DNA of 64,000 bases from an alpha proteobacterium U9-1i. GTDB lineage: Bacteria > Pseudomonadota > Alphaproteobacteria > Caulobacterales > Aquidulcibacteraceae. The notes under the pieces are model-generated. The model worked only from the letters and a program-made list of their open reading frames with translations, did no database searches and was not told the origin of the DNA. The stretch's first letter is position 1. Each line of letters starts with the position of its first letter. A program made the position numbers and the translations under genes. The stretch covers positions 1 to 64,000 of the forward strand of contig BBSY01000001.1 of assembly GCA_000974665.1 (NCBI GenBank), read 5' to 3'. Positions 5,586 to 21,482 of the stretch are shown here, piece after piece.

Positions 5586-5733
5586 CCATTGAACCTATCA
5601 TTTCTGCCGCGCGCCGTCCCGGCTCGCGTCGCGGCCTTGAGCGCGATCAATCAAGTTCGCCGAAAGCGATGCAAGTTTCGTCGCTGTGGTGTCCGGCAAT
5701 GCGAAACCTGCTCTTCGGCGTAAAACAATCCGC

Positions 5734-6936: not shown

Positions 6937-7013
6937 GCTTGGCCCGCGCGGGCCGTCGCGAGTTGGGTTAAAAACCGCGCTCGCGCCGAACGGCGCACGG
7001 CTCATGGACGGCA

Positions 7014-7963
7014 ATGGCGCGCACGGAAGACCCTCGTATCGCGGTTGTGATCGCGGCGTACAACGCCGCGTTAACGCTTGAGCGCGCCGTGCGCTCGGCG
7101 CTGGCGCAGCCTGAAACGAGCGAGATCATCGTGGTTGATGACGCGTCAACCGACGTAACCGCCGCATTAACCGAAAGCTTGGCGAAAGCCGATCCGCGCG
7201 TACGGCTGATCCGCCAATCGCGCAATGCTGGCCCAGCCCACGCCCGTAACGCCGCGCTGAACGTAGCCACGGCGCCCTGGATCGCCATTCTCGACGCCGA
7301 CGATTACCTCGCGCCGGGGCGCTTCGCCGCACTTCTCACAAACGCCGGCGACGCTGACTTCATCGCCGACACCTTGATCCGCATCCCCGATGGCGCGCCG
7401 ACCCCCGCGTTCACGCCGGACCCACGCGTGCTGGGCCCGATCAGCTTCGAGCACTTCGTTCTCGGCAATATGGGAGCGCTCAAAGGCCCGCTCGATTTGG
7501 GGTTCGTGAAGCCAATCTTCCGCCGCGCCTTCGTCGAGCAACACGGCATGCGCTATGCCGACATGCGCCTCGGTGAGGATTATGAATTCTACGCACGCGC
7601 ATTGGCGCTGGGCGCGCGGTTCCTCATGATCGGCGCCGCTGGCTATTTTCGGCCGAGCGCGAAGGCTCACTTTCGAAGGACCATTCCGAACGCGACCTTC
7701 AGGCGCTTCGCGATTGCGATCGCGGCCTCGCTACGATCCGCACGCTCAGCATCGCCGAACGGCGCGCGCTGGATCAGCATGCGTCGAGCGTGGATTGTCG
7801 CCTGCAATGGCGGCGCATGATCAGCGCCGTGAAAGCACGAGACGCCGCCGCCGCCTTGAGCACCTTCACATCGCCTCGCTCGACGCTTTACCTCGCCGCG
7901 CGCCTCGGCGAGCAAGCGTGGTTGCGCAGCGTCGGCCGTCTGGCTGGGCGGAGCGCCCCATGA
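7014..7963 (+). pseudogene. GT2 family glycosyltransferase, frameshifted near 7649
   Basis: The first 212 codons form a normal GT2 enzyme: IAVVIAAYNAALTLERAVRS, VVDDASTD, GPAHARNAALNVA, ILDADDYLAPGRF and LGEDYEFYARALALG. At 7646-7649 (TATTTTC) the frame breaks. In the original frame the tail turns into an Arg/Ser/Ala-rich string ending at 7820. Shifting by -1 restores a plausible tail (SAEREGSLSKDHSERDLQAL onward) for 104 more codons, to a TGA at 7961-7963 that overlaps the ATG of the next gene as ATGA. The intact protein would be about 316 residues. Either one T was lost from the T run (sequencing error or true mutation) or ribosomes shift here; no canonical slippery heptamer is present. Confidence 0.8.
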
Positions 7964-9237
7964 CCAGCGTCGCCGCCCCCAATCCGCGCGCCGCAGCATT
8001 GCGCAAATTGCAGATGCAATTCCTGCCGGAAGCAGCGGCCTTCGCTTTTGTGGCGCTTATGACGGCGCAAGTGTCCGAGGTCGGCCCGCTTTTAGTGCTG
8101 GCGCAACTCGGCATTTTCGGCCTGCTCGTGGTTATGCGGCCGGCGGATTGTTTGCGCATTTTCCTGCGCTGGTGGCCGCTTTTGCTGACGCCGTTGATCG
8201 CGTTTGCATCGTTCTTCTGGTCGGATTTACCCGCGCAATCGGCCCGCTACGGCTTCCAGCTCTTCTTCACGGCGTTCGTCGGCGTATTGCTCGCGAACAT
8301 GCTGCCGCCGCATCGTTTCATCGCGATGACGTTCCTCAGCATGTTGGTGTTCTGCATCCTCTCGGTCGCCAGCCGCCGCATGGGGCCGTCGGTCGAAGGC
8401 CTGGTGCTCGTCGGCTTCACCGGCTCCAAGAACCAGATGGCGCTCGCCGCTTACACCTTGCTGGTGTCAGGCGTCGCTACCTTCCTGCTGCGCGAGTCGC
8501 CGCGCTGGATGCGGCCCGCCGCGCTCTTCGGCGGCCTGGTTGCTGTCTACATTCTTGCGACGACGAGTTCCGCCAGCGCGTTCCTACTGGCGGGCCTGGC
8601 CGCGCCCGGCCTCATCGCGCTTCACCTCACCAAGCGCATGGCGCCCGCCGTCCGCGTCGCGATCCTCGGCTTCGCAATCATCGTCGCCATCCCGATCATC
8701 TTCCTCGCACCCGAGATCGAGGCGGCGATCAATTACTTCCTGTTCGATACGCTCGGCAAAGACCCAACCCTCACCGGCCGCACGCACCTCTGGGCGCACG
8801 CGGTCGACTTGATCTCGCGCAGGCCTATCGAGGGCTATGGCTATCAAGCGTTCTGGCTGGGCGAGAGCCCGGAATCGGTGGGCCTGTTGCGCTGGGCGGG
8901 CGTCGCTGACGGGCGCACCTTCCACTTCCACAACACCTACCTTCAGCTCGGCGTGGACATTGGCTATCTGGGCATGGTGACATTCGCTGGCGCGATCCTG
9001 GCCGGGCTCTTCGCCGGCATGCGCCAGTACATCCTGCACCCTACGACAGCGACGGCGTGGGCATTCGTAATGTTCCTGGGCATCGCCGTACTCAGCTTCA
9101 CCGAGCTTGTGCTGGCGCCGATGCTGCCGCGAACGCTCTTCCTCTACGCCTGCGTTGTTTACCTGTTTTGGTCGCCTCAACCCGCCGCTCAACCGGCGCC
9201 GCGGCGGGTCTACCGCAAGACCTGGGCGGCTGGTTAA
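7960..9237 (+). CDS. O-antigen ligase / Wzy-type polymerase family membrane protein
   Basis: A 425-residue integral membrane protein with about ten hydrophobic segments. The long periplasmic stretch holds LTGRTHLWAHAVDLI and then FHFHNTYLQLGVDIGYLGMV, which match the Wzy_C/WaaL signature (TGR and H-N-x-x-L). In an exopolysaccharide locus such a protein is most likely the ExoQ/Wzy polymerase that joins repeat units at the periplasmic face; a ligase role cannot be excluded. The ATG at 7960 overlaps the stop of the frameshifted GT2 (ATGA), which both fixes the start and shows that the upstream gene once read through. Confidence 0.85.
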   Translation: MTSVAAPNPRAAALRKLQMQFLPEAAAFAFVALMTAQVSEVGPLLVLAQLGIFGLLVVMRPADCLRIFLRWWPLLLTPLIAFASFFWSDLPAQSARYGFQLFFTAFVGVLLANMLPPHRFIAMTFLSMLVFCILSVASRRMGPSVEGLVLVGFTGSKNQMALAAYTLLVSGVATFLLRESPRWMRPAALFGGLVAVYILATTSSASAFLLAGLAAPGLIALHLTKRMAPAVRVAILGFAIIVAIPIIFLAPEIEAAINYFLFDTLGKDPTLTGRTHLWAHAVDLISRRPIEGYGYQAFWLGESPESVGLLRWAGVADGRTFHFHNTYLQLGVDIGYLGMVTFAGAILAGLFAGMRQYILHPTTATAWAFVMFLGIAVLSFTELVLAPMLPRTLFLYACVVYLFWSPQPAAQPAPRRVYRKTWAAG

Positions 9238-9348
9238 CAGCGCGGCGCAGCGACGCGCTTTTGGGGCGTTGCTTTCCCCGTCCGCGCGAACAAGATGCGG
9301 CCGCGACGGGTCTTGCAGGGTAAGCCCTGACATTCGGAGAACGAGACG

Positions 9349-9921
9349 ATGGCTTCGCCAATTTGGCACACGCGACGCGCGCTTTTGGGGTTCCTGGCGG
9401 CCGGCGTTAGCGCGGCTGCGGTCTCAGGCTGCGTCACCAACGAAGCCATCACGCCGACCGAGATCCCGGAATATCGCCTCGGCGCCGGCGACGAGTTGCG
9501 CGTCATCGTGTTCGGAGAAGCCGAACTTACCGGCCCGTTTGTCGTCGGCACCCAAGGCTCGATCGCCTACCCGCTGATCGGTGAAGTGCAGGCCGCCGGC
9601 CTCACCCCGCTCGAACTCGCCGCTCGACTGCGCGAGGGATTGTCGCAATTCCTGCGCAACCCCAATGTCAGCGTTGAAGTCGCGAATTATCGCCCGTTCT
9701 TTATCCTGGGTGAGGTCACGCGCCCGGGCAGCTACCCCTATTCGCCGAACCTAACCGTGCAAAACGCCGTCGCAACCGCGGGTGGCTTCACCTATCGCGC
9801 GAACCGCAATCGCGTTTACATCAAGCACGCTAACGAAGCTCAGGAACGCCCATACGACCTGACCTCCGGTCTGCCGGTCCTGCCCGGCGACACCCTGCGC
9901 ATTGGCGAGCGTCTGTTCTGA
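9349..9921 (+). CDS. short polysaccharide export (OPX/Wza-like) lipoprotein
   Basis: 190 residues. The N-terminal signal ends in a lipobox (VSGC, Cys28), so it is probably a lipoprotein. YRLGAGDELRVIVFGE followed by ISYPLIGEVQ-like sequence is the polysaccharide export (PES) domain, and FFILGEVTRPGSYPYSPNLT begins one SLBB domain. The protein stops soon after (LPGDTLRIGERLF). It lacks the extra SLBB repeat and the C-terminal amphipathic helix with which full Wza spans the outer membrane. GGAG stands seven bases before the ATG. It should work with the Wzc-type kinase encoded next and needs another protein to cross the outer membrane. Confidence 0.9.
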   Translation: MASPIWHTRRALLGFLAAGVSAAAVSGCVTNEAITPTEIPEYRLGAGDELRVIVFGEAELTGPFVVGTQGSIAYPLIGEVQAAGLTPLELAARLREGLSQFLRNPNVSVEVANYRPFFILGEVTRPGSYPYSPNLTVQNAVATAGGFTYRANRNRVYIKHANEAQERPYDLTSGLPVLPGDTLRIGERLF

Positions 9922-10073
9922 CACAGGGCGGCGCGGAATGTGCAGTGCGACGTAGAGGACAGGACAGCTCCAAAAGCCCTGTGCTAGTCTGACCGCGAGG
10001 GGACGCCTTTTTCGGGCTCGTGGTTGGATAAGCGCTGGGCTGGCGCGGTCCGAACCATGGCCGGTGCGAACCT

Positions 10074-12209
10074 ATGAATATGATGAACCAAGAACCGCCG
10101 CAAAACCCGTCAGGGCAGCCCACTGGGCCGCAGGGCCTTGCGGATTTGTTTGGCATCGACGCCGCGCTCGGCATGTTGCGCCGTCGCTTTCTGGTTATGG
10201 CGATGGTCGGTGTCGCCGCCGCTGGCGCCTTGTTCACTTTCTTGATGCTCGGCACGCCGGTTTACCAGGCAACCGCGCTTGTCATGATCAATCCGCGCCA
10301 AGAGCGCGTTTTGCGTGGCGAGGACATCGTCGGCCAATTGCCCCGCGATTCATCGGCCATCGATTCCGAAATCGAATTGATGCGTTCGTCCACCTTGATG
10401 ACCGAACTCGCGGACGCGCTGACGCAGATCGATCGCGCCGCCGGCGGTCCAGCGGTCGAAACAGAAACTGCGGGTGAGCTGACCAGCGAAATCAGCGTGC
10501 GCCGCCGTGGGCTCACCTACGTTATCGAAATTTCGGCGAACTCGGAGGATCCGAGCCGCGCCCAATTGATCGCCAACACCTACGCCGACGTCTACATCGC
10601 CAGCCAAGTCAATTCGCGCATCGACACGGCCCAACGCGCCAATTCTTGGCTCGGCCGTCGTCTATCGGAGTTGCGTGAAGACGTGCAGCGCAAAGAGAGC
10701 GCCGCCGAGACGTTCCGCATCGGCGCCGGCTTGATGTCGGCGGGCGGCACCGCACTGGCGGAATCGCAGATCACCGAAATTCAATCGCAAATGCTTCGCG
10801 CCGAAGCCGATCTCGGCGCCGCCGAAGCGCGCTATCGCCAAGCTCAACAGGTCGTGACCTCCGGTGGTTCGCTCGAATCCGTCGGGAGCGTCCTCAACAA
10901 CGAAGAAATCCGCCAATTGCGCGGCCGTCTCGCTGACATCGCCCGCCGTCAAGCGGACCTCGAAACCCGCTATCTTGAAACACACCCCGCCGTTCAAGCC
11001 GTGCGCTCGGAACGCGCCGACATGGAACAGCAAGTTCGCGAAGCGACGCAGCGCGTGCTTGCCGGTCTGGCGGACGATGTGAACGTCGCCCGCGCGCGTC
11101 TCAGCACGCTGCGCGGTTCGATGTCCGCGGCCACGGGCGAACTGGGAACCAATTCCAACGCGAGCGTACGCTTGCGCGAGCTTGAACGCGAAGCTGCCGC
11201 CAGCCGCGAAGTCTATGAGAGCTACCTCCAGCGCTATCAGGAGATCGCCGATCAGGATCAGCTCAACACCTCGGACGCGCGCTTGCTCTCCTACGCCACC
11301 GAGCCGCACTCGCCGTCGTCGCCAAAGCTGCGCGTCGCGCTGGCGCTCGCCATTGCGCTTGGACTTGTGCTCGGCATCGGCGCCGGCGTGGCGGTCGAAA
11401 TTCTCGATCGCTCGGTAAAGAACGCTGACGAGCTGGAAGCCAAGACGGGCGTACCGGCGATCGCTTCGATTCCCACAATTTCCAAGCGGATGCTGCGCCA
11501 GATGGCGCCGGCGGACCGCCATCCAGCGGGCTATCTTGTCGCGCGCCCAATGTCGGCGTTCACCGAAGCCCTGCGGGTGCTGCGCACAGTGATCGTCTAC
11601 TCCAAGCTCGATCTCACGTCCAAAGTCGTCGCCATCACGTCGGCCTTGCCGGACGAAGGCAAGACGACAATCTCGGCTTGTTTGGCGCGGGTCGCGGCTA
11701 TGTCTGGTCAACGCGTGGTCGTTGTCGATTGCGACTTGCGCAAGCAAAGCATCAACGACGTTCTCGACGTCGAAAGCGACGTCGGAATCCTGCAGGTGCT
11801 GGCGGGTGAAGCGCCGTGGCGCGCCGCGATCATTCGTGACGAAGCCACCGATGCGCACATCCTGCCCGTTGCCACGTCTGGTTTCACGCCGCGCGACGTG
11901 TTCGGCTCGGAGGCCATGAAGGCGCTGCTCACCGAGCTGCGCGCGAATTACGACCTGGTCGTGCTCGATTGCGCGCCGATCCTGGCGATCGCCGAAACCC
12001 GCATCGTCGTGCAGCATGCCGACGCCGTGGTGCTCGTCGCGCGCGCTGGCCGTTCAGCGACGGGCGCGGTACGCTCAGCCATTGCCCAAACAGAAGCTGC
12101 GGGCGGAAAAGTGTTGGGCGTCGCGCTGAATTGCGTGCTGCCGCATTGGCAGTCTTACAGTGACTCCCTCTACTTCTACGATTCCAAGTCCTATTACAGC
12201 GTCGGCTGA
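10074..12209 (+). CDS. Wzc/ExoP-type polysaccharide co-polymerase and tyrosine autokinase
   Basis: 711 residues with the full bacterial tyrosine kinase layout. A Wzz domain has one membrane segment near residues 40-60 and a long periplasmic coiled-coil stretch; a second membrane segment lies around residue 425; the cytoplasmic BY-kinase follows. Walker A is SALPDEGKTT (about 523-532), Walker A' is VVVVDCDLRKQS, and Walker B is LVVLDCAPILAI near 627. The C-terminal 17 residues hold a tyrosine cluster (SLYFYDSKSYYSVG), the autophosphorylation tail. It controls polymer length and export with the OPX protein. The next gene starts 16 bases after its stop. Confidence 0.93.
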   Translation: MNMMNQEPPQNPSGQPTGPQGLADLFGIDAALGMLRRRFLVMAMVGVAAAGALFTFLMLGTPVYQATALVMINPRQERVLRGEDIVGQLPRDSSAIDSEIELMRSSTLMTELADALTQIDRAAGGPAVETETAGELTSEISVRRRGLTYVIEISANSEDPSRAQLIANTYADVYIASQVNSRIDTAQRANSWLGRRLSELREDVQRKESAAETFRIGAGLMSAGGTALAESQITEIQSQMLRAEADLGAAEARYRQAQQVVTSGGSLESVGSVLNNEEIRQLRGRLADIARRQADLETRYLETHPAVQAVRSERADMEQQVREATQRVLAGLADDVNVARARLSTLRGSMSAATGELGTNSNASVRLRELEREAAASREVYESYLQRYQEIADQDQLNTSDARLLSYATEPHSPSSPKLRVALALAIALGLVLGIGAGVAVEILDRSVKNADELEAKTGVPAIASIPTISKRMLRQMAPADRHPAGYLVARPMSAFTEALRVLRTVIVYSKLDLTSKVVAITSALPDEGKTTISACLARVAAMSGQRVVVVDCDLRKQSINDVLDVESDVGILQVLAGEAPWRAAIIRDEATDAHILPVATSGFTPRDVFGSEAMKALLTELRANYDLVVLDCAPILAIAETRIVVQHADAVVLVARAGRSATGAVRSAIAQTEAAGGKVLGVALNCVLPHWQSYSDSLYFYDSKSYYSVG

Positions 12210-12225
12210 GCGGGGGGCGCGCACG

Positions 12226-13359
12226 ATGCGCGTCGCCTACTTTGCCCACGAACTGTCGGACCCAGCCGTCAGCAAGCGCGTGCGCTTGCTGCGCCTCGCT
12301 GGTTGTGACGTCGAATTGTTGGGGTTCGAGCGCGCACGCTTTGGCGACGCACTCGCGCCGCAGCGCCACGTACTGGGCCGCACCGAAAGCGGCAAATTCC
12401 TGCAACGTATTCTTGCAGTCATTCGCGCCTTGCCATTGGCGCATCGGCTCCGCGATGTGTGGGGCTCAACCAACGTCATCATCGCCCGCAACCTCGAAAT
12501 GTTGGCGTTGGTGATGCTGCTGACGCATGTCCGCGGCGATCGTCGGCGCGTCGTTTATGAATGCCTCGACATTCACCGCTTGATGATCGCCGACGGCCCG
12601 TTCAGCGACCTTCTCCGGTGGATCGAACGCTTGTGCTTAGCGCGCACCTCGCTTGTGCTGACGAGTTCACCTGCGTTCGAGGAAAAGCACTTCCGTAATC
12701 GTCAGAAGTTCGCCGGCGAAGTGATGATCGTCGAGAACAAGGTGCTGGCGTTCGACGAGCCGCCGGCTCGCATCGTCGCGCTGCCCGCCATCCCACCGTG
12801 GCGCATCGCCTGGTGCGGCGTTCTTCGTTGCCGCAAGAGTTTCGATATCCTTGACAGCGTGTCGCGCCAACTCGATGGCGGGCTGATCGTCGATTTGTGG
12901 GGCGTGCCTGCGCTTGATCAGATTCCGAACTTCCAAGCGCGAGTGGATGCGAATCCACACCTAAACTTCCACGGCCGCTATCAGCCCGACGATCTGGCCA
13001 AGATCTATGGCGGCGCGCATTTCGTTTGGGCGATCGACTATTACGAGGCCGGCGGCAATTCCGACTGGCTGCTCCCGAACCGGCTTTATGAGGGGTTGCG
13101 CTTCGCCGGCGTGCCGATCGCGCTGATCGGCACCGAGACCGCACGCTGGCTCACCAGCCGGTGCTTGGGCGTCACGCTCGGCGAACCGCTAGCGGCTGAA
13201 CTTTTCCAACATTTGAAAACGTTGCCCGCGTGGCGCCACGCGCATATGCGCGAAGCCGTCACGCGCTCTGATCCACGCGACATCGCGTTTACGCTGCCCG
13301 AATGCCGCGAGATTGCGCGGCGCTTGCTCGGCGTTCCAGTTGCGGCCAACGCCGCATGA
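12226..13359 (+). CDS. GT-B fold glycosyltransferase
   Basis: 377 residues beginning MRVAYFAHELSDPAVSKRVR. The start at 12226 is the first that yields this Rossmann-like opening and comes 16 bases after the co-polymerase gene. NVIIARNLEMLALV and VVYECLDIHRLM mark the first domain. GAHFVWAIDYY...GGNSDWLLPNRLYEGLRFAGVPIA marks the second, where the donor-binding Glu of GT4-like enzymes normally lies. It is likely a glycosyltransferase for the repeat unit. It overlaps the next gene by four bases. Confidence 0.8.
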   Translation: MRVAYFAHELSDPAVSKRVRLLRLAGCDVELLGFERARFGDALAPQRHVLGRTESGKFLQRILAVIRALPLAHRLRDVWGSTNVIIARNLEMLALVMLLTHVRGDRRRVVYECLDIHRLMIADGPFSDLLRWIERLCLARTSLVLTSSPAFEEKHFRNRQKFAGEVMIVENKVLAFDEPPARIVALPAIPPWRIAWCGVLRCRKSFDILDSVSRQLDGGLIVDLWGVPALDQIPNFQARVDANPHLNFHGRYQPDDLAKIYGGAHFVWAIDYYEAGGNSDWLLPNRLYEGLRFAGVPIALIGTETARWLTSRCLGVTLGEPLAAELFQHLKTLPAWRHAHMREAVTRSDPRDIAFTLPECREIARRLLGVPVAANAA

Positions 13360-14342
13360 GCGTCCTCGTCGTCATCCCTTGCCTCAACGAAGAAGCATAT
13401 CTACCCGGCCTGCTCGCGCAGCTGAGCGCCGACGACAACGTTGCGCGCATCGTTGTCGCCGACGGCGGCTCCACGGATCGCAGCGCCGAGATCGTGCGTC
13501 GCGCCGCCGAGGCCGACGCTCGTATCGTGCTGCTGCACAATCCAGCGCGCATCCAATCCGCCGGCGTCAATCTCGCAATCAAAACACACGGTGGCGAGGC
13601 TGCGTTCTTCGTTCGCGTTGACGCTCACGCGGGCTATCCCTCGAATTTCATCGCTACATTGCTTGCCGCGCAGAGCGAAACCAACGCCGATAGCGTCACC
13701 GTCTCGATGCGTGCGGTTGCGCGGTTGGGGGCGTGCTTTCAGCACGCCGCGTCCGCGGCGCAGAATAGCGCGCTGGGCGCGGGCGGTTCGGCGCATCGCA
13801 GCGGCGGTGCGCGCCGTTGGGTCGATCACGGCCACCACGCGCTCTTCCGCACCTCAACGTTCGTCGGCGTTGGCGGTTACGACGAACGCTTCAGCCACAA
13901 TGAGGATGCGGAACTGGATCTCCGCATCGTGCAAAGCGGCGCCAAGATCCTCCTCGCGGCGGACATCCTGATTGATTATTACCCACGCAAAACGCCTTCG
14001 GCTCTCGCGCGCCAATATTTCAATTTCGGCCATGGCCGCGCGCGAACAACGCGCAAACACGACGTCGCCCTCAAGGCGCGCCAACTCGCTCCAGCGATGA
14101 TCGCCCCAGTGATCGCACTCGCGGCGTTTGCGCCGATCTCTGTGTGGTTTGCTGCGCCCATGCTCAGCTGGCTCGGGCTTTGCCTCGGCTACGGCGCGAT
14201 TTTGGGGCTTCGCGAACGCAATTCTTGCGCCGCCGGCGCGGGAATAGCCGCCGCAATCATGCACGCGGCGTGGTCCCTTGGTTTTATCGTGGGGCTAACC
14301 TCAGCACGGCGCGACGCGGTTCATTCCTCGGCCAACGCGTAA
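13356..14342 (+). CDS. GT2 family glycosyltransferase, ExoA-like
   Basis: 328 residues. MSVLVVIPCLNEEAYLPGLL, VVADGGSTDRSAEIV, NPARIQSAGVNLAI and VRVDAHAGYP are the ExoA succinoglycan glucosyltransferase pattern. GGYDERFSHNEDAELDLRI gives the ED acceptor motif. The C-terminus has two to three hydrophobic segments that would hold it to the inner membrane. Its ATG overlaps the preceding stop (ATGA), so it is co-translated with the GT-B enzyme. Its 3' end overlaps the convergent GH16 gene by 22 bases. Confidence 0.86.
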   Translation: MSVLVVIPCLNEEAYLPGLLAQLSADDNVARIVVADGGSTDRSAEIVRRAAEADARIVLLHNPARIQSAGVNLAIKTHGGEAAFFVRVDAHAGYPSNFIATLLAAQSETNADSVTVSMRAVARLGACFQHAASAAQNSALGAGGSAHRSGGARRWVDHGHHALFRTSTFVGVGGYDERFSHNEDAELDLRIVQSGAKILLAADILIDYYPRKTPSALARQYFNFGHGRARTTRKHDVALKARQLAPAMIAPVIALAAFAPISVWFAAPMLSWLGLCLGYGAILGLRERNSCAAGAGIAAAIMHAAWSLGFIVGLTSARRDAVHSSANA

Positions 14343-15163
14343 GCGCGCACGTAATCCACTTCCATGATCACTGGGAACGGCGTGCGCCGATTGGGCGAGC
14401 CCGCCCACGCTCCGCCGATCGCTAGGTTCACCAGCATGTACATCGGTTGGTGCATGTCACCTGGCGTTGCGCGGCGCCGCACTTCGAAGCCGTCGATGAA
14501 CCAAGTCACCTGCTCACGCGTCCACAAGACGCCGTATGTGTGAAAGGCGGATGTCGCGGTGGGCACATTAATCGCTTGCACGCCGCCGTCATTTCCCTCG
14601 TTCGTCTTGAGGCCGACATACACGGTCGTCGGATCGCGGCCGAGATGTTCAAGCACATCGATCTCCGGCGGCCACGACCCATCCGCCGGCAACAACCAGA
14701 ACGCCGGCCACATGCCCGCGCCCTCGGGCAAGCGCGCACGCATTTCGAAATAGCCATAGGTCTGGCTAAAGCTCTGGCGCGTGTTGATGAGGCCCGACGC
14801 GTAGCGATAGTTCCACATCCGCCGCGCGATCCGTCGCGGAACGCGTGCCGCCTTGATGCGCAGCACACCCTGGCGAATTTCGAACGGCTCAAAGCCCAGT
14901 GGTACTTGTCCGGTACCGGTGAAACCTGGCTCTACATAAAGCTGAAGCTCACGGTTGGAGGTGAGCGTTCGGTTGGCGATGCCGTCATAGCCAAACGTCG
15001 TGGACCATACGCCGGTGTCGCCGTGGCGCAGCCGTAGCCGATCAAACTGATCCTCAAAGGTAAGGCGCAACGCGCCGCGCGCAGATGCGGCTTGCTGTGC
15101 GTGGGCCACGCCAGCACCGCACGCGAGCGCCAAGCACAACGTCAAAATCCAACGGCGGATCAT
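14321..15163 (-). CDS. secreted GH16 family glycoside hydrolase
   Basis: 280 residues: signal peptide (residues 1-23, ending GVAHAQ) and one GH16 jelly-roll domain. The catalytic motif PEIDVLEH (Glu167 nucleophile, Asp169, Glu172 acid/base) is intact, and GYFEMRARLPEGAGMWPAFW precedes it as usual. ATG at 15163 is preferred over a GTG two codons upstream because GGGGAG lies at proper distance. Members cut beta-1,3/1,4-glucans or galactans. In ExoK-type loci the enzyme trims nascent exopolysaccharide, the most likely job here. It faces, and slightly overlaps, the ExoA-like gene. Confidence 0.9.
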   Translation of the reverse strand: MIRRWILTLCLALACGAGVAHAQQAASARGALRLTFEDQFDRLRLRHGDTGVWSTTFGYDGIANRTLTSNRELQLYVEPGFTGTGQVPLGFEPFEIRQGVLRIKAARVPRRIARRMWNYRYASGLINTRQSFSQTYGYFEMRARLPEGAGMWPAFWLLPADGSWPPEIDVLEHLGRDPTTVYVGLKTNEGNDGGVQAINVPTATSAFHTYGVLWTREQVTWFIDGFEVRRRATPGDMHQPMYMLVNLAIGGAWAGSPNRRTPFPVIMEVDYVRAYALAEE

Positions 15164-15190
15164 GCCCACTCCCCGCCCGCGCGCGTGAGC

Positions 15191-15964
15191 TTATTGCGCG
15201 CGGCGCCGTCCACCGGCTGACGCTGGCGGCTTAACAGGCAATGGAAGATCGCGGAAGCGCAGACGCAATCCTGGCCGCCACAGCTCGCCTCGATCGCGCA
15301 ATTCGCGCACGGCGCGCGTTGCGATCAGGATGTCGTGCCAGATCGACCACGACAAAGCGTAAATTTTATATGGGCCGCCGACGCTCTCTTCATCGCCATC
15401 GCCATCGCCGAGGCCGATGATGCCGGGCCGAGCGCTCAGATAATAACGTCGCGCCGTACGCAGCGCGTCAACTTCGTCCCGACGCAGCGGCCCTGGACCA
15501 ACCAAACTCATCTCGCCGCGCAGCACGTTGAACATCTGCGGCAGGCGCTCAAGAGCGCGCTGCCACTTGGCGGCGCGGCTCTCTGCATTCAGCGGGGTCG
15601 CGGTTTGCGTTCCCGGCCGCAGCATTTCGATCACCGCTTTCGGCGGCGCGAGTTGAAGACGAAACGCCTTAAACGCGTGGCTGCCATAGCCAATGCGTTC
15701 CTCGGCGACGAACAATGGCCCCGCGTGGCGGATACGCGCCGCCAGCGTGCTGACAACGAGCATCAACAGCCAAATCGGCGACGTCAAAGTCGCGACGACG
15801 AGATCGAACACGCGTTTCGGCGAACCGCCAATCAGCGACTCGTAAGAAACGATCGGCGCGTTCGCGAGATCGCGACGAAGCCCAGCTTCGAACGGCGTGC
15901 ATTCCGACTTTGGTGGCCCTGGCGGCTCTTGACCGGAGGCGCCGCGAGGCATTTGAACGAGCAT
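15191..15964 (-). CDS. degenerate phosphoglycosyl transferase (bacterial sugar transferase) homologue
   Basis: 257 residues, homologous to the monotopic sugar-transferase family. It has SPKRVFDLVVATLTSPIWLL (re-entrant helix), GPLFVAEERIGYGSHAFKAF and LPQMFNVLRGEMSLVGPGP. Key residues are gone: the KFRTM segment is FRLQL, the catalytic Asp-Glu pair before LPQ is Glu139-Arg140, the Arg of GPRP is Gly158, and GLWQV is GLGDG. It is probably not an active transferase. ATG at 15964 is chosen because AAGGGGG precedes it and family similarity begins there; codons further upstream look non-coding. It is divergent from the equally degenerate kinase-like gene. Confidence 0.82.
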   Translation of the reverse strand: MLVQMPRGASGQEPPGPPKSECTPFEAGLRRDLANAPIVSYESLIGGSPKRVFDLVVATLTSPIWLLMLVVSTLAARIRHAGPLFVAEERIGYGSHAFKAFRLQLAPPKAVIEMLRPGTQTATPLNAESRAAKWQRALERLPQMFNVLRGEMSLVGPGPLRRDEVDALRTARRYYLSARPGIIGLGDGDGDEESVGGPYKIYALSWSIWHDILIATRAVRELRDRGELWRPGLRLRFRDLPLPVKPPASAGGRRRAQ

Positions 15965-16153
15965 AAAGCCCCCTTGACCCTCATCGCCCAAAATGCGCAA
16001 AGCGAGAGCGGAATTCAACGCCTTTAGCGGACGTTTTTGAAAGGTGTGCGCGCTGTCGCGCAGGCGCCACCACTGCGATGGGCGCACCTGGGGATAAACG
16101 GTGGCGCCGCGCGGCGGATTACGCGAGAAGGCGTTCAGAAGGGGCCCCGAAAA

Positions 16154-17188
16154 GTGCACCAAGACGTGGCGATCGACACTCAACCTCTGCTGAATTTTCG
16201 TTTGCAAACGACCAGCGCGCGAGACCGCCGGAATGCGCCGACGGCCGCTTGGCCTATACGCGCCGCGCGCCGCGCCGCGCGCGCGCTGAAGCGCCAAACC
16301 CCCGTTCTTATTGCTCTTCTTGCGGTCGGCCTGCTGCTCGGCGTCGGCTATTTCATGTTGGCGCAAGCCCCCCTCGCGACCGCGCTCGGGAGCGGTGCGA
16401 GCTTTGGGCTGGCTGCTGGCGGCTTGCTGGCGCTGGCGCGTGAGCTTGGCCGCAACGCCATCGGGCTCTCGAGTTTTGGCGGTAAAAACAAGTATCCGAT
16501 CCTCGGTGCGGCGCCCGATTTGTCAGCGCAGACGCTTCGCGATCTGGCGCCAGATCAGCGCACGCCGCTCGGCTGCTTGCTGCATCAACCCGCCGCCGGC
16601 TTCGCCACTGCGTTTCGCGATCTCGAAAAAACGCTGTCAAACAAGCAATTGGTGGCGTTCGTTGGCCCCGCTCCGGAAGAAGGCGCAACCACTGCGGCGC
16701 TTGCGGTCGCGGTAACCGCCGCACAACAAGGCCGCCGCGTCATCGCCGTTGATTGCGATCTCGGCCGCCGTTCCCTCACCCGCGCCATCGAGGCTGATCC
16801 GGAACGCGGCGTAGCCGACGCAGTGGCAGCGCCTGAGAGCTGGCGCGACTTCCTGACGCAAGAAGCGGAGTCCGGGCTGGATGTGCTGCCGGCAGGGCGC
16901 ACGCGCAATGTTTGGCGCAGCCCCTTTGACGGGCCGGGCTTCGAGACCCTGATGGACAAGCTGCGTGAGGATTACGACCTGATCGTGCTGGATTGCCCGC
17001 CAACCCTGAACGCGGATGGCGCCATCGTCGCCCGCAGCGCCGACAGGTGCGTGATCGTGACGACCTGGGACGAGACCCCTATCGGCGCGCTCAACGACGC
17101 GCTGCGGGCCCTGGGCCGCTCCGGCCCCGAACATACATCGGTGTTCGTGAACCGCGTGCCGTCGCGCTACGCGCTGGCGCGGTCGTAA
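16154..17188 (+). CDS. Wzc-like BY-kinase homologue lacking the Walker A lysine
   Basis: About 344 residues (GTG at 16154 chosen for AGAAGGGG upstream; TTG at 16037 and GTG at 16166 are alternatives). Two hydrophobic segments lie close together (VLIALLAVGLLLGVGYFML and a Gly/Ala-rich one), with no periplasmic coiled-coil loop between them. The kinase-like domain keeps Walker A' (VIAVDCDLGRRSL) and Walker B (LIVLDCPPTL). Walker A reads APEEGATT, with Ala178 in place of the essential Lys seen in the paralogue encoded at 10074. There is no tyrosine-rich tail. It may be a regulatory partner rather than a kinase. It converges on the Hsp70-like gene with 22 bases of overlap. Confidence 0.78.
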   Translation: MHQDVAIDTQPLLNFRLQTTSARDRRNAPTAAWPIRAARRAARALKRQTPVLIALLAVGLLLGVGYFMLAQAPLATALGSGASFGLAAGGLLALARELGRNAIGLSSFGGKNKYPILGAAPDLSAQTLRDLAPDQRTPLGCLLHQPAAGFATAFRDLEKTLSNKQLVAFVGPAPEEGATTAALAVAVTAAQQGRRVIAVDCDLGRRSLTRAIEADPERGVADAVAAPESWRDFLTQEAESGLDVLPAGRTRNVWRSPFDGPGFETLMDKLREDYDLIVLDCPPTLNADGAIVARSADRCVIVTTWDETPIGALNDALRALGRSGPEHTSVFVNRVPSRYALARS

Positions 17189-18480
17189 GCGGCGAGCATC
17201 GCCTCCGGCGCCAGCGCACCACCTATCGCCACCGCGAGTTGCGGGAACACCGGCGCGAGATTGCCGCCGAACGCCGCGGCGTTCGCCCAATCCGGTATCG
17301 ACGGCCGAGCAACGACTTTGACGCCGCCGCCAGGTGCTGATGATTTGATCAAAGCCTGAATGAATGGCGCGGGCGCGCCGCCGCCAACCGCGACGGCGAC
17401 GATGTGCTTCTGCTTGTCCGCACGCGCGCGATCGCGCAGCGCCTTCAGCGCGCCGAGATAGGCGCGCGTCAGGTCGTTCTGAAATTGCTTGAACCCCTTG
17501 TCGCGCTCGAAATCTTTGAGCGACAGATTGATCACGCGCGCGCCGAACCGGAACACGCCGCGTCCGGTCGCGAACAAGCTCTCTTTCAAATCGCGAACAT
17601 TCGGCCCCATCGCCGCCCAAAGCTCTTGTTGCTGCGCGACGCTCTTCAGGTTTGGGCTCGCGGCCAATGCTTGATTGAGCAGCACGCGATCCATGAAATC
17701 GCCCGCTTGCGCCAAGGTCACGCGGGCTTCATGCAGCTCGGCTGAGCCGGCCAGCGCCGCGATATCCGTTGTACCGGCGCCGACATCCACAACGATCACG
17801 TGAGTTGCGCGATCCGCCAAGCTGACAGCACTGCACGCCGCCGCGGCGGTTGCCTCGTACACCATATCCATCCGCCACGTGGCGGCGGCGACATCATCAC
17901 GCGCCCCTGCAAGCGCCGCGCGCGCCGACGCTGCAGCGACGCGATTTTCCGCTATTTTTAGAGCGTTTCCGACGACACGCGCTTCGCCGAACAGGCGCTC
18001 GATCACACGGTGCGCGGCGATTCGATCGTCACGCCATGCAGGTGATGCGTAGCGCCAAGCATTCACGGCGCCCACCACCGGATCGGAAGCAACAGCGCGC
18101 TCCACCGCCCCCATCAGGAACGCCAAGTAGAGAACAACCAGGTCGCGCTGCTGTAGCGCGCGTTCAGGATCAATCGACGCGGGCGCGCGCGCCGACAAGG
18201 CGCGTTCTAGGTCGGGCGCTGACAGAATTGTCTTGAACGATCGCAGCGCTTGGCGTTTCCCACCTGCTTCAGCCGCGGCGGAAATCGCCGCCGCGCCGAA
18301 CAGGATTTCGTCGCCGGCGATGAACACTGCGCTGTCGAGAAGGAATGGATTGCCGCCACCAAGGGCATTCAGCATCAGGGGACGAATTTTTGCTGCGTCG
18401 AAATCAGTCCATGCGCCCGCAGGCGCTGCCGCGGCCTTTGAGAACGCAGTCCCAAAATCGATGCAAACAGTCCAGTTCAT
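17167..18480 (-). CDS. Hsp70-like ATPase domain protein without substrate-binding domain
   Basis: 437 residues with the actin/Hsp70 ATPase layout: phosphate-1 IDFGTAFSK (7-15), phosphate-2 VIVVDVGAGTTDI (228-240) and the adenosine motif VAVGGGAPAPFI (363-374). It ends shortly after the nucleotide-binding domain, so there is no beta-sandwich or lid for client peptides, unlike DnaK (about 630-640 residues). Its ATG overlaps the stop of the upstream GrpE-like gene (ATGA). The function is unknown; it could be a nucleotide-dependent switch acting on polysaccharide machinery or an unrelated chaperone-like factor. Confidence 0.8.
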   Translation of the reverse strand: MNWTVCIDFGTAFSKAAAAPAGAWTDFDAAKIRPLMLNALGGGNPFLLDSAVFIAGDEILFGAAAISAAAEAGGKRQALRSFKTILSAPDLERALSARAPASIDPERALQQRDLVVLYLAFLMGAVERAVASDPVVGAVNAWRYASPAWRDDRIAAHRVIERLFGEARVVGNALKIAENRVAAASARAALAGARDDVAAATWRMDMVYEATAAAACSAVSLADRATHVIVVDVGAGTTDIAALAGSAELHEARVTLAQAGDFMDRVLLNQALAASPNLKSVAQQQELWAAMGPNVRDLKESLFATGRGVFRFGARVINLSLKDFERDKGFKQFQNDLTRAYLGALKALRDRARADKQKHIVAVAVGGGAPAPFIQALIKSSAPGGGVKVVARPSIPDWANAAAFGGNLAPVFPQLAVAIGGALAPEAMLAAYDRASA

Positions 18481-18908
18481 CGCCCGCGTTTCGCCTTCGC
18501 GGGCTTGCGGGCGGGAGCGAGCTTCACCCGCGCTTTCACCAGCACGTCCTCACCCTTGACGACGCCAGGCGCCAGCACCCTCACGCGCGCGGCGGCGCGA
18601 ACGGCGCCGTCGATCTCATGCTTACGGCGATCGAACTTCTCGATGGCGCCCACTTCGCCGAACCGCTGAGCGCCCCGTTTGCGCGCCACGGTCTCAAGCG
18701 ATTGGGACAAGAGCGCAAATCCGTCCTGCGCTTTGCGCAACGCAGCCGCACTTTTCGTGCGTGACAATTTGCTGAGCGCCAGTTCAACCACCACCACCTC
18801 AGCCAAAGCCGCCGCTAGGGCGCGGTCCGCCTCGGCCCAGCCAGCTTCACCCAACGCGCCAATAAGATCATAGCCGGCGGCCTTCTGGCGCGCCTTCCGC
18901 TGTGTCAT
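18477..18908 (-). CDS. GrpE-like putative nucleotide exchange factor
   Basis: 143 residues, starting MTQRKARQKAAGYD at 18908. The first two thirds are helical, Ala/Leu-rich and possibly coiled coil. The end (FGEVGAIEKFDRRKHEIDGA and a later VLVKARVKLA) follows the GrpE head pattern, where a phrase like FDPNLHEA is followed by a beta domain ending near RPAMVKVA. The assignment to GrpE rests on this weak pattern plus the four-base overlap with an Hsp70-like ATPase gene. It is shorter than normal GrpE (about 180-200) and Lys/Arg-rich at its tail. It would act in the cytoplasm to exchange nucleotide on its partner. Confidence 0.6.
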   Translation of the reverse strand: MTQRKARQKAAGYDLIGALGEAGWAEADRALAAALAEVVVVELALSKLSRTKSAAALRKAQDGFALLSQSLETVARKRGAQRFGEVGAIEKFDRRKHEIDGAVRAAARVRVLAPGVVKGEDVLVKARVKLAPARKPAKAKRGR

Positions 18909-18961
18909 GCGTCCGCCCTCGTCGCGGGCACATTGGCGCCCGCGCTTGCTCCGAAGCAAGC

Positions 18962-20173
18962 TTAGAGGCGGATCTTCACGCCCACGGTGAAGCGGTTGAC
19001 TTCGAAATCGCGGTCGCGGTCGAGGCCATCGGAACTGTTGTCGAAGCGGTCGTAGCGCGTTTCCAGCGCTACGCGGCGGTTCAACAAGTACTCCACGCCG
19101 ATATCGGCGTAGGTCGCTTCATCCTCACGATCGGTCGGCGCTTCGTATTCGCGCTGAATACGGCCGATTCCACCGGAAAGAATGATGTTGCGGCGCAGCT
19201 CGTGATCGACACGAACGCCCATATCCGAGGCGATATAGGTTGCGGCGCCCGAAGCGCCGGTTTCCTCAACGTCACGACGGCCGCGCAGCGTCACTGTCGT
19301 GATCGGCGTCGCGAACCATTGAACATTGCCGGCGAAGGCCACGCCATCGACCTTGTCGTTGAGGTATTCGCGCTCGAATTGCCCCACCGTCACCTCGCCC
19401 GAGAGCAGGCCGGTCAGGTTCATGCGCACGCCGGCGGCGATGGTGCGGCCATCGGAATTGAGCGCGGGGGCGCTATCATACTCACGCTCGTCGAAGCGGA
19501 CATCGCCGAGCACTTGCAGGCGCGGACTCACCGCGACGGCGACACGGCCACCGACGTAATTCTCCGTGCGATCACGGAAACTCTGGCCGAGGCCGTCATA
19601 ATCGGTGTCATTCGTGCCGATGACGCCCGAGAGGCGGAACCGATTGATGGTGTGCTCGGCGCCGATCTGCGCTTCGCGGCGCTGATATTCGACCGGTTCG
19701 GCCAAACCGCCAGCGTCCGGCGCGGTGCGCGGCTCGGTTTCGTTGGCGAGGCGCAAGCTGGCCGACACATTGCTGTCGCGGCCCACATCGAGACGACCGT
19801 AGGTGCCGATGTAGCTGGACTCGGTGTTTTCAGAGTCGAAATCCTGGAAGCGATTGAAATTCGCGCCAGCCGAAAACGACAGCGCGTGGCGCGACCAATT
19901 GGAGTCGAGGCTGCCATACGGATTAACGCTGAATTCCATATCGTCTTGTTCGTTTGTTTCGGTAGCGAACACATTGTCATTTGTGCCCGCGAACAGGTTC
20001 ACGCCCGCCTGCAAAGTGAAGCCGCCGATGCGACGGCCAAGCGGGTCGTAGTCGGGCCGCGGCCGATCCTGAACGCCCTGGTTCGCCTGCGCTTCCTGGG
20101 CTACCGCATGAACCGGAGCAAACGCCACCAAAACGGCAGCCAAAGTCGACACTGATGCTGAACGAATGCCCAC
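18962..20173 (-). CDS. outer-membrane beta-barrel protein of exopolysaccharide locus (BBP2_2-like)
   Basis: 403 residues from a GTG at 20173, which follows GGGGAG at ideal distance and gives a clean signal peptide (cleavage near VHAVAQ-E); an ATG at 20230 would add 19 polar residues. The mature part has the pattern GGFTLQAGVNLFAGTNDNVFAT and then many alternating amphipathic strands with Asp/Asn/Glu turns up to VNRFTVGVKIRL. This resembles the BBP2_2 family of barrels found beside polysaccharide export genes. It is a candidate outer-membrane pore for polymer leaving the short OPX protein encoded at 9349. Confidence 0.82.
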   Translation of the reverse strand: MGIRSASVSTLAAVLVAFAPVHAVAQEAQANQGVQDRPRPDYDPLGRRIGGFTLQAGVNLFAGTNDNVFATETNEQDDMEFSVNPYGSLDSNWSRHALSFSAGANFNRFQDFDSENTESSYIGTYGRLDVGRDSNVSASLRLANETEPRTAPDAGGLAEPVEYQRREAQIGAEHTINRFRLSGVIGTNDTDYDGLGQSFRDRTENYVGGRVAVAVSPRLQVLGDVRFDEREYDSAPALNSDGRTIAAGVRMNLTGLLSGEVTVGQFEREYLNDKVDGVAFAGNVQWFATPITTVTLRGRRDVEETGASGAATYIASDMGVRVDHELRRNIILSGGIGRIQREYEAPTDREDEATYADIGVEYLLNRRVALETRYDRFDNSSDGLDRDRDFEVNRFTVGVKIRL

Positions 20174-20723
20174 GTCAGGCTCCCCACTAGCCGCTTCGGG
20201 GGCGGCAAACCTGTCAAACGATTGCGGCATCGATCCCTCGCTTCCGGTTGCAGTGCAATGCGATGCGCGCGCGGGGGGATAGGCAGGACTCGTTACGCCC
20301 TAAGCGTTCAATTAAAACGCCAATCCCGTTCTACGCGGCAGGCCACAATTGCGCGAACGCCCACAAGCCTGCGCGTGAAACGATGAACCAAATGATACTG
20401 CAATAAAGGATAACGCCGCTGGCCACGATCCAGGGCGGAATCTTCGACTTTTCCCGCAGATACTCTGTGGTTACCGCAGGCGGATACCGCCTCGGTTCTG
20501 CATGGACTTGGGGGCGGCGGAGAGCACCCAAACGTGTGCCTTTCGTTCGACTCGCCCCGTGGCGAGAGCACCTGAAACGACTCTATCTCCAGGGCCGGCC
20601 CTGGCAAGCTTCACTAACAATCCAATTCCACAACCGCGCGAGATAGGTTGCGCCGCACAATTCTTGCATGCGATTGTTTCCGAGCCGCTAAGCGAGGGTT
20701 AGCGGCCGGGGATTTTGGTTAAA
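20174..20723. other. 550-base region between barrel gene and sugar transferase gene
   Basis: Apart from the possible 66-codon membrane ORF at 20331-20531 I see no gene. The region should contain the divergent promoters of the barrel gene (minus) and the sugar transferase (plus). I find no convincing sigma-70 hexamer pair and no terminator hairpin. The stretch 20532-20723 is less GC-rich than its surroundings. Confidence 0.4.
20331..20531 (-). CDS. possible small single-pass membrane protein
   Basis: 66 residues if read from a TTG at 20531; there is no ATG in the frame. After a basic, Pro-rich start comes EYLREKSKIPPWIVASGVIL and a strongly hydrophobic, aromatic-rich helix to the end (WFIVSRAGLWAFAQLWPAA). 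The clean membrane segment preceded by basic residues supports a real protein, while the weak start and lack of a ribosome site argue for caution. Function unknown; its place between barrel and sugar transferase genes would suit an envelope role. Confidence 0.35.
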   Translation of the reverse strand: MGALRRPQVHAEPRRYPPAVTTEYLREKSKIPPWIVASGVILYCSIIWFIVSRAGLWAFAQLWPAA

Positions 20724-21482
20724 ATGACCAATAGGACTATCGAGGCAGGCGCTGAGGTTCGCGTCCTGTTTCGCGGTCGGCAGAATGCAGCGGCTGGACG
20801 GTATCGTCTTTACCCTTCGCGTTCGCCACACCGTGTGACAGACCGGCGGCTCATCCGCAAAGCGCGTCTCGCCAACGGCCGCGCGAAACGCTTCTTTGAC
20901 GTAGTGCTGGCGTCGCTGCTGCTCGCATTTCTGATGCCGGCGCTGCTGACGATTGCTGCGGCCATCAAGCTCACCGATCCAGGCCCCATCTTTTATCGCC
21001 ACAAGCGTCTCGGTCGCCGCGGCAAGCGTTTTGGCTGCATCAAATTCCGCACCATGGCGGTCGATTCCGAAGCGCGTCTTCGGCATCTGCTCGAAACCGA
21101 TCCAAACGCTGCGGCCGAATGGCTGGAGTCGCAGAAGCTGCGCAACGATCCGCGCGTCACGCGCATCGGCGCATTCTTGCGCAAGACCAGCCTCGACGAG
21201 CTGCCGCAGCTTTGGAACGTCATCAAAGGCGAGATGAGCATGATCGGCCCGCGTCCGATCACCCGCGACGAACTCGCGCGCTACGGCCGCGACCGTCGTT
21301 TCTACCTTCTGGTCCGCCCAGGTATCTCGGGCCTCTGGCAGGTTAGCGGCCGCTCAAGCGTCAGCTACGATCGCCGCGTTCAGTACGACCGCGAGTACCT
21401 CGAAGAATGGTCGTGGTTCCAGGAGTTGCGTATCGCCGCGCTTACGCTTCCAGCGGTGATGTTTGCGCGCGACGCCTGCTGA
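20724..21482 (+). CDS. initiating phosphoglycosyl transferase (ExoY/WcaJ-type sugar transferase)
   Basis: 252 residues. The membrane re-entrant helix (AKRFFDVVLASLLLAFLMPA) is followed by the monotopic transferase core: GPIFYRHKRLGRRGKRF, IKFRTM, SLDELPQLWNVIKGEMSMIGP with catalytic Asp158-Glu159, GPRP, and RPGISGLWQVSGRSS. All active-site motifs are intact. It should move a sugar-1-phosphate from a nucleotide donor to undecaprenyl phosphate, the first step of repeat-unit assembly. The start is ATG at 20724; TTG at 20715 is possible. It is the only catalytically complete initiating enzyme in the window. Confidence 0.9.
   Translation: MTNRTIEAGAEVRVLFRGRQNAAAGRYRLYPSRSPHRVTDRRLIRKARLANGRAKRFFDVVLASLLLAFLMPALLTIAAAIKLTDPGPIFYRHKRLGRRGKRFGCIKFRTMAVDSEARLRHLLETDPNAAAEWLESQKLRNDPRVTRIGAFLRKTSLDELPQLWNVIKGEMSMIGPRPITRDELARYGRDRRFYLLVRPGISGLWQVSGRSSVSYDRRVQYDREYLEEWSWFQELRIAALTLPAVMFARDAC

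Follow-up and report, generated by a model that had tools for sequence, protein, structure and literature searches.

What would two polysaccharide-synthesis enzymes that appear to have lost catalysis be doing next to an Hsp70-like and a GrpE-like gene, inside an exopolysaccharide (EPS) export locus? The question is posed by positions 15191–18908 of a 64,000-nucleotide stretch of DNA (the window) from the alpha proteobacterium U9-1i (contig BBSY01000001.1, positions 1 to 64,000). A preliminary description had placed four such genes there, the two pseudoenzyme genes being divergent, the GrpE-like and Hsp70-like genes coupled, and the block bordered by genes for a GH16 enzyme and a barrel protein. 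All four genes, both flanks, the divergent arrangement and the coupling, in the form of an ATGA overlap, were confirmed (Table 1). The block looks like a control module that is apparently undescribed and whose function is predicted here. Wzy, OPX and Wzc are present in the window's exopolysaccharide locus, and all ten proteins scanned from 7714 to 21482 are products of EPS or module genes, with no restriction, helicase or methylase neighbours among them. Across 40 fetched regions the BBP2 barrel gene lies beside the gene of the GrpE-fold protein (GrpEl) in 25; GH16 was rejected as part of the module, since a match, weak and distant, was found in 3 of these regions.

Table 1. Features of the block and of the surrounding export locus (positions in the window).
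Feature	Position	Strand	Remarks
Short OPX/Wza polysaccharide export protein, 190 aa	9349–9921	+	PF02563, 1.8e-24
Wzc (PCP-2a)	10074–12209	+	Intact BY-kinase domain (DEGKTT), Tyr-rich tail
GH16 family hydrolase	14321–15169	-	PF00722; adjacent, but not conserved with the module
psPGT (pseudo-phosphoglycosyltransferase, PF02397)	15191–15964	-	PF02397, 6e-21; lacks the catalytic Asp-Glu dyad
psPGT–psBYK divergent intergenic region	15965–16165	.	Likely shared promoter region
psBYK (two-TM BY pseudokinase)	~16166–17188	+	Related to the C-terminal half of Wzc
Hsp70-like protein, NBD only, 437 aa	17167–18480	-	Profile and predicted structure
GrpEl (GrpE-fold protein)	18477–18908	-	Predicted fold; 4-bp ATGA overlap with the Hsp70-like gene
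BBP2_2 outer-membrane beta-barrel	18962–20230	-	PF10082, 1.9e-83; EpsX-like translocon part by analogy
Intact initiating PGT	20715–21482	+	KFRTM and SLDELPQ retained

The earlier claim that both enzymes have lost catalysis is upheld at the level of motifs: the catalytic residues are gone, and they are gone family-wide. The Asp-Glu dyad of active monotopic PGTs, present in the intact PGT at 20715–21482 (SLDELPQ), is missing from psPGT, which reads ALERLPQ at this site. Both residues are replaced in all 20 aligned psPGT rows, the Glu by Arg in 17. Because the lost Asp has become Glu in 15 of the 20, psPGT may retain residual activity. psBYK has a BY-kinase fold from which the Walker-A Lys has been lost in 22 of 22 rows (Ala in 21, Thr in 1), while the Walker A' DxD is retained in all 22; two hydrophobic segments were found in 21 of them, and the Tyr-rich tail is absent (1–2 Tyr in the last 25 residues). 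The start codon of psBYK in the window is uncertain, either GTG at 16166 or TTG at 16202. In a kinase tree, psBYK sequences fall on one side and Wzc on the other (100/100), which contradicts recent copying of the adjoining Wzc as the origin of psBYK; this possibility was rejected. In G211, a BY-kinase frame of 306 aa that stands alone was likewise discarded as a psBYK, as it retains the Walker-A Lys.

Loss of catalytic residues would also be expected if psPGT and psBYK were decaying remnants of duplicated enzymes. The psBYK branches are indeed longer than those of Wzc, and in G053/L054 psBYK is split across two frames. However, psBYK forms one old group, and dN/dS is below 1 in all pairs listed, both for psPGT (14 of 41 pairs; 0.08–0.52) and for psBYK (14 of 52; 0.10–0.60), values that are rough with dS near 0.8–1. 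As the same residues are lost throughout the family, other positions are invariant and dN/dS stays below 1, we consider decay extremely unlikely.

A close parallel is offered by EcpK of Myxococcus xanthus and HfsB of Caulobacter crescentus, BY pseudokinases of Wzx/Wzy polysaccharide pathways which, in the available portion of PMC12004946, are proposed to act as PCP scaffolds. According to the same portion, these are stand-alone BY-kinase folds devoid of the Walker-A Lys and the Tyr tail, as is psBYK, and HfsB is important for the stability of HfsA. psBYK might thus be a scaffold of this type, the Hsp70/GrpE-like pair merely helping its assembly, which we regard as unlikely. In contrast to PCP partners lacking a BY-kinase domain, the adjoining Wzc (10074–12209), assumed here to be the partner, keeps an active-type kinase domain with DEGKTT, and its last 24 residues include 5 Tyr. 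Moreover, psBYK has its own pair of TM segments, is tied to the Hsp70/GrpE-like pair and psPGT, and keeps Walker A' and B, which are reported as absent from EcpK (PMC12004946, available portion). The Hsp70-like protein, for its part, lacks a substrate-binding domain.

This protein matches the nucleotide-binding domains (NBD) of Hsp70/BiP at profile level (5.6e-19). Its predicted model (pLDDT 91) retrieved Hsp70-family PDB entries with Foldseek E-values down to 3.8e-13 and TM-scores to the query of 0.51–0.60 among the 50 matches listed. Ten ATPase positions in the phosphate-1, phosphate-2 and adenosine motifs are conserved in 39 of 39 rows. With 437 aa and no further domain in the predicted model, a substrate-binding domain is absent. 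The predicted model of GrpEl shows the long helices and the C-terminal beta domain of the GrpE fold; its first 12 Foldseek PDB matches are all GrpE entries (probability 0.98–1.00; E 2e-4 to 1e-2; next E-value 1.8), and TM-scores to the query are 0.37–0.51. GrpEl matched no Pfam family and scored 24.4 bits against the NCBIfam GrpE model NF010760, for which the cut-off is 240; a profile search of PDB sequences found no GrpE, whereas the structure search did. Judged by its model, GrpEl is a putative nucleotide-exchange factor of the Hsp70-like partner.

The two genes recur as a pair. The ATGA overlap is possible in 24 of 25 pairs, and GrpEl lies beside the Hsp70-like gene in 37 of 38 matches, the one miss being marginal (G053:C5:710032; E 7.7e-4). 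psBYK adjoins the Hsp70-like gene in 30 of the 32 matches listed, the other two lying on other contigs. The profile rows came from Hsp70-like gene regions, and the informative part of these counts is that almost nothing was found elsewhere. The pair could be a chaperone devoted to the folding of export proteins, for instance the barrel or Wzc, given its predicted GrpE and Hsp70 NBD folds and the barrel gene adjoining it. Yet a chaperone of this kind would be working without a substrate-binding domain, canonical dnaK and grpE are encoded elsewhere in the genome, and two assemblies have the pair but no BBP2 barrel, so we hold this role to be improbable. The canonical genes also led us to reject a DnaK/GrpE pair displaced from its heat-shock locus.

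The preliminary description had left the co-occurrence of the four families to a neighbourhood survey; in it, 23 of the 60 family genomes, that of the window included, proved to have all four together. A genome-wide search of these 60 genomes yielded 23 strong psPGT relatives (the four f2 pair genomes were covered in 20-kb regions only). All 23 lie beside psBYK in a fixed divergent order, at a spacing of 151–386 bp as measured from the ends of the profile matches. psPGT is present in all 22 loci with an adjoining Wzc and in G038, where the contig is cut off, and in none of the 10 other pair or triad genomes searched; among the module genes only psPGT tracks the export genes.

Searches of the family and the order gave 37 Hsp70/GrpE-like pairs. 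Twenty-two have a Wzc nearby: a script counted 21 at a distance of up to 12 kb, and G044 was added by hand. The G044 locus is divided between two contigs, one of which, C468, carries psPGT next to Wzc together with the end of the Hsp70-like gene. The pair of G038 is accompanied by barrel, PGT and GT4 genes on a contig ending before any Wzc; three are separated from a Wzc by 23–38 kb, and the other 11 have different locations. By these counts the pair resides mainly, but not only, in polysaccharide loci within the order. The proposal that it belongs to such loci therefore stands in part, with more distant relatives found in restriction/defence loci, and a tie to polymer synthesis as such does not hold in the form given. 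Fragmentary Hsp70-like matches (two in G037, two pieces in G045:C6, and G044:C468) are omitted from the co-location count, and the two pieces of the G039 Hsp70-like gene and of the G053 psBYK were each entered as one coordinate span. Kinase counts are among the matches listed, weak ones that are neither of Wzc length nor psBYK being omitted. Thresholds for the Hsp70-like protein were 1e-3 in one search and 1e-15 in another, and psBYK was searched for in family genomes, not across the whole order.

The core of the module is the triad of Hsp70-like protein, GrpEl and psBYK, which also occurs where no Wzc adjoins. In G057 and G059 it shares a thioesterase/RR/HK flank with the window, and no Wzc (among the matches listed), psPGT or barrel was found in these assemblies. 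The triads of G023, G024 and G014 adjoin PEPCK, MaoC/FAD-enzyme and GlnD genes, and G013 and four f2 genomes have solitary pairs. As the triad is found without an adjoining Wzc, and in G057/G059 without any found, its function is not confined to this EPS pathway.

The pair also resembles a candidate phage-defence pair, PDC-M61A/B, both window proteins matching its PADLOC models. The Hsp70-like protein matches PDC-M61B over residues 2–422 (1.6e-51) and GrpEl matches PDC-M61A (3.1e-7) at model positions 392–479 of 482 only, the N-terminal part of about 390 residues being absent from GrpEl. In contrast to the defence candidate, the window pair has EPS genes as neighbours, and the Hsp70-like proteins lie on separate branches of the tree. 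More distant relatives of the pair stand alone or in restriction/defence loci (L090–L092, L095, L096), unlike that of the window. We found no mention of PDC-M61 in the open-access literature searched, nor does Hsp70, GrpE or DnaK occur in the main text of a paper on BREX-related systems (PMC12839542).

The PEPCK, MaoC/FAD-enzyme and GlnD neighbours, the solitary pairs, the Wzc-less triads on a window-like flank and the PDC-M61 match would all fit a triad that is an independent membrane switch for stress or defence, located at the EPS locus by chance, with only psPGT and the barrel serving polymer export. We regard this as possible, though doubtful. Triads of the window clade are mostly in EPS loci, where psPGT has joined them in a fixed divergent order, and OPX is retained in 10 of 10 genomes checked for it. 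Furthermore, the G057/G059/G049 copies are nested within the EPS-associated clade, which suggests that in this lineage the EPS setting is older than the triad-only setting.

We favour, tentatively, a conserved control module of the exopolysaccharide locus in which an ATP switch acts through a membrane pseudokinase and to which psPGT has been added. The model of the preliminary description, a nucleotide switch acting on a non-catalytic platform, may hold. The switch is most likely related to the defence-candidate pair and wired into exopolysaccharide control by the added psPGT. At its core, an Hsp70 NBD that lacks a substrate-binding domain would be reset by a dedicated exchange factor of GrpE fold, with translational coupling providing a fixed ratio of the two. 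The switch would act on membrane-bound psBYK. As this pseudokinase is similar to Wzc in the part that runs from TM helix 2 through the kinase domain, it could bind to the kinase ring of Wzc and yet not phosphorylate. EPS loci would add psPGT, most likely pairing with the active initiating PGT, and through this pairing the nucleotide state of the switch would gate initiation as well as polymerisation/export. We infer all protein-protein contacts, the direction of control and the input signal. Several observations sit uneasily with this control module, namely the triads without an adjoining Wzc, the occupation of defence loci by distant relatives of the pair, the active-type kinase domain of the local Wzc, unlike the partners of EcpK and HfsB, and the Glu that stands for the lost Asp in 15 of 20 psPGTs.

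An improbable reading is that psBYK and psPGT mimic the two control enzymes of capsule/EPS synthesis, the Wzc kinase domain and the initiating PGT, as decoys guarded by the PDC-M61-related Hsp70/GrpE switch. Interference with the polysaccharide machinery, whether from phage or from another agent, would then set off a response. If true, the system would represent a new type of bacterial sensor made of pseudoenzymes.

Post-translational on/off control of polysaccharide pathways is an open question in many systems. The module offers a testable case, with two apparently dead enzymes co-conserved with an NBD-only Hsp70 and its own GrpE. Through it, polysaccharide loci are connected with a family that is listed as a candidate for phage defence, and the lineages that keep the triad without adjoining export genes provide a natural experiment. 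No description of the psPGT/psBYK/Hsp70-like/GrpE-like combination was found in the open-access literature searched, of which the listings were partial, and no open-access paper was found that joins Hsp70, a GrpE-like protein and polysaccharide export.

Related elements are nevertheless known. In Myxococcus, the partner of SglK is GrpS. The Hsp70s SglK and StkA affect EPS/fibrils in this genus and, as far as the available sections report, are not heat-shock-induced (PMC8265645, PMC4319316). They thus share with the window protein the Hsp70 type and the EPS/fibril link, but SglK resembles DnaK and is able to stand in for that of E. coli (PMC8265645, available sections), whereas the window protein is an NBD only, encoded in an export locus. 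Post-translational control at the PGT has precedents: phosphorylated EpsW shifts the large PGT EpsZ towards the dimer and thereby activates it, and the small PGT CapM is phosphorylated by CapB1. EpsW is a response regulator and CapB1 an active tyrosine kinase, and a pseudo-PGT is not mentioned in the accessible text (PMC12802240). Finally, a possible parallel lies in the CoCoNuT type IV restriction systems, in which Hsp70-like ATPase domains have been recruited to a non-folding role. The units there have an SBD in addition to the NBD and are either fused to McrB/McrC homologues or encoded alongside them (PMC11090510, in the part available).

The gene identifications that the preliminary description made in the block at 15191–18908 were correct. 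A pseudo-phosphoglycosyltransferase (psPGT), a stand-alone two-TM BY pseudokinase (psBYK), an Hsp70-like protein made up of a nucleotide-binding domain (NBD) only (ASK) and a GrpE-fold protein (GrpEl) lie within an exopolysaccharide (EPS) locus on a contig of 341,807 bases, in a genome of 4.05 Mb in 5 contigs. In the same genome, at G000:C3:267090–274456, a second OPX (243-aa frame) and a long PGT (628-aa frame) lie less than 7 kb apart and may mark a holdfast-type (hfs) locus.

Features of the EPS locus and the four-gene block
Feature	Position	Strand	Remark
Wzy/ligase-like protein	7714–9237		One end of EPS locus
Short OPX/Wza	9349–9921		
Wzc	10074–12209		
Two glycosyltransferase-like genes	Between Wzc and GH16		Named by eye
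GH16	14321–15169		Directly before the block
psPGT	15191–15964	-	PF02397 at 6e-21
psBYK	~16166–17188	+	Matches Wzc-type kinases
ASK	17167–18480	-	
GrpEl	18477–18908	-	
BBP2 barrel	18962–20230		After the block
Intact initiating PGT	20715–21482		End of EPS locus, next after barrel

The SLDELPQ motif of the intact PGT reads ALERLPQ at the same place in the window psPGT. The Asp is lost in all 20 aligned rows (Glu in 15, Ser in 2, Gly, Gln and Val in 1 each), as is the catalytic-motif Glu (Arg in 17). For psBYK, the Walker-A Lys is replaced by Ala in 21/22 rows and by Thr in one, while Walker A' DxD is present in 22/22 and the Walker-B Asp in 20/22. Its C-terminal 25 residues hold 1–2 Tyr, and RFGRLRxD, a C-terminal motif of most relatives, is missing from the window copy. 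Two hydrophobic segments (Kyte-Doolittle mean ≥1.5 over 19 residues) are found in 21/22 rows; psBYK is therefore similar to Wzc starting at TM2 but lacks its periplasmic part. A kinase-domain tree (61 rows, 58 different; midpoint root, long branches flagged) places the 32 stand-alone rows on one side and the 29 Wzc rows on the other (support 100/100). For the pair L038–L044 (dS 0.8), dN/dS was 0.08 for psPGT and 0.10 for psBYK; with dS <1.2 it ranged over 0.08–0.52 (14 listed of 41 psPGT pairs) and 0.10–0.60 (14 listed of 52 psBYK pairs), figures that are rough because dS is near saturation. The psBYK of G053 (L054:11349–12324) occupies two frames, the result of either a mutation or an assembly error.

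The window ASK (437 aa) contains no substrate-binding domain and scores 17.3 bits against Pfam HSP70, below the cut-off of 20.6. A profile built from 39 ASK relatives matches Hsp70/BiP NBDs at 5.6e-19, and ten phosphate/adenosine positions are identical in 39/39 rows. The best 50 PDB matches of its structure model (pLDDT 91, pTM 0.91) are Hsp70-family by title with the exceptions of 3cqx ('Chaperone Complex') and 7sqc (ciliary apparatus), at TM-scores to query of 0.51–0.60. GrpEl (143 aa), which adjoins its NBD partner, matched no Pfam family, and its profile found no GrpE among PDB sequences. The first 12 structure matches of the GrpEl model (pLDDT 82, from 7 sequences) are all GrpE (prob 0.98–1.00, E 2.1e-4 to 1.2e-2, TM 0.37–0.51), with the next match only at E 1.8. 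A 4-bp ATGA overlap of the two genes is possible in 24 of the 25 pairs examined. Canonical dnaK and grpE are located elsewhere in this genome. It also holds a second Hsp70-like paralogue (G000:C5:59852–61171, L064) that adjoins a histidine-kinase-like gene and lacks a GrpE-like partner, likewise seen in L071 and L072. A mutation or an assembly error has also divided the Hsp70-like gene of G039 (L073:6147–7411) between two frames.

Search profiles were built from genes of ASK regions; adjacency of the source rows is by construction, and the test of linkage is the near-absence of genome-wide matches elsewhere. Genome-wide searches returned almost nothing away from ASK regions. By coordinates, GrpEl lies <300 bp from an ASK in 37/38 matches; psBYK adjoins ASK in 30/32, the remaining two being on other contigs, and psPGT and psBYK are 151–386 bp apart in 23/23. 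Within the family, GrpEl occurs in 33, psBYK (E ≤ 1e-120) in 28 and psPGT (E < 1e-80) in 23 of 60 genomes, with further psBYK as a two-piece copy (G053) and divergent copies (G014, G023, G024). Across the order, ASK (E ≤ 1e-15) was found in 45 of 299 genomes and GrpEl in 36, from 6/54 genera.

Wzc is near 22 of the 37 ASK/GrpEl pairs (21 within 12 kb by script, G044 added by hand). Barrel, PGT and GT4 accompany the pair of G038, where the contig ends; in G031, G043 and G052 the barrel adjoins and Wzc is 23–38 kb away, and in L035, the one of these loci looked at, glycosyltransferases adjoin psBYK. The other 11 pairs lie elsewhere (G049, G057, G059, G023, G024, G014, G013 and four genomes of f2, another family of the order). 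psPGT is present with all 22 Wzc-near pairs and in G038; at E < 1e-80 it is absent genome-wide from 10 other pair genomes, and in the four f2 genomes no psPGT match was found within the 20-kb regions searched. Of 52 ASK paralogues that lack GrpEl, 11 have a Wzc at a distance of 12 kb or less. Such paralogues in L065, L068, L069, L070, L080, L085, L087, G211 and G242 are ~10 kb or less from other Wzc, often with Wza/barrel genes too.

In L057 and L058 (G059, G057) the triad of ASK, GrpEl and psBYK is flanked by thioesterase/RR/HK genes, as in the window, and in L057 (Pfam scan) by transhydrogenase genes on the other side. Neither Wzc nor the BBP2 barrel was found in these assemblies (93 and 96% complete), each of which has one OPX ~6–7 kb from a long PGT. 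As these rows and G049 are nested in the EPS-associated clade of the Hsp70-like tree (98/96 and 97/94), the simplest reading, which depends on the tree's rooting, is loss of the EPS genes with the triad retained. Triad neighbours in G023, G024 and G014 are PEPCK/HK, MaoC/FAD-enzyme and UDPGT-like/GlnD genes. The four f2 genomes and G013 carry a solitary pair (L174:9450–11641, L175–L178), in which a ~260-aa protein (one 318 aa as picked) is coupled to an ASK of ~464 aa. This partner has a GrpE-like end and, at its N-terminus, an additional part that resembles a winged helix by visual inspection alone. ASK was the sole match at these loci among 23 window-protein queries. The psBYK profile matched once per genome, in frames of 734–763 aa that are Wzc-type because the Walker-A Lys is kept.

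The nucleotide switch acting on a dead platform, as previously proposed, remains viable, but the comparative data split it in two: they suggest that the proposed switch and the pseudokinase form a module core not bound to EPS, and that psPGT is its EPS-specific part. We infer the interactions, the direction of control and the signal. By analogy, there are published precedents for each half of the model. A PCP scaffold role has been proposed for BY pseudokinases (PMC12004946), the initiating PGT is a reported point of control (PMC12802240), and effects of Hsp70s on EPS are described (PMC4319316, PMC8265645). Hsp70-like units are also employed by CoCoNuT restriction systems (PMC11090510). Among the matches listed from the open-access literature, no paper with this gene combination was found.

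In 7/8 distant loci (L088, L090–L093, L095 and L096, not L089) the ~490-aa gene that lies upstream of a longer ASK is also matched by the GrpE-like profile. In L090 (region 5259–14308) PADLOC labels the two genes PDC-M61A and B, a candidate phage-defence pair, and it assigns the gene of L096 to PDC-M61A. From the window, ASK matches PDC-M61B at 1.6e-51 and GrpEl matches PDC-M61A at 3.1e-7; the solitary-pair ASK matches PDC-M61B at 6e-64, its ~260-aa partner having no PADLOC match. Given these matches and the varied restriction/defence surroundings of the distant pairs (L090–L092, L095, L096), the Hsp70/GrpE-like pair appears to be an old unit that serves in several settings, and the match of PDC-M61A to the GrpE-like profile is a clue to the working of that candidate system. 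L090 has HmaB and a DUF499 protein as neighbours, L091 a ZorD/DpdE-like helicase, L092 both a helicase and a type III restriction enzyme, L095 PglW and L096 a type III methylase.
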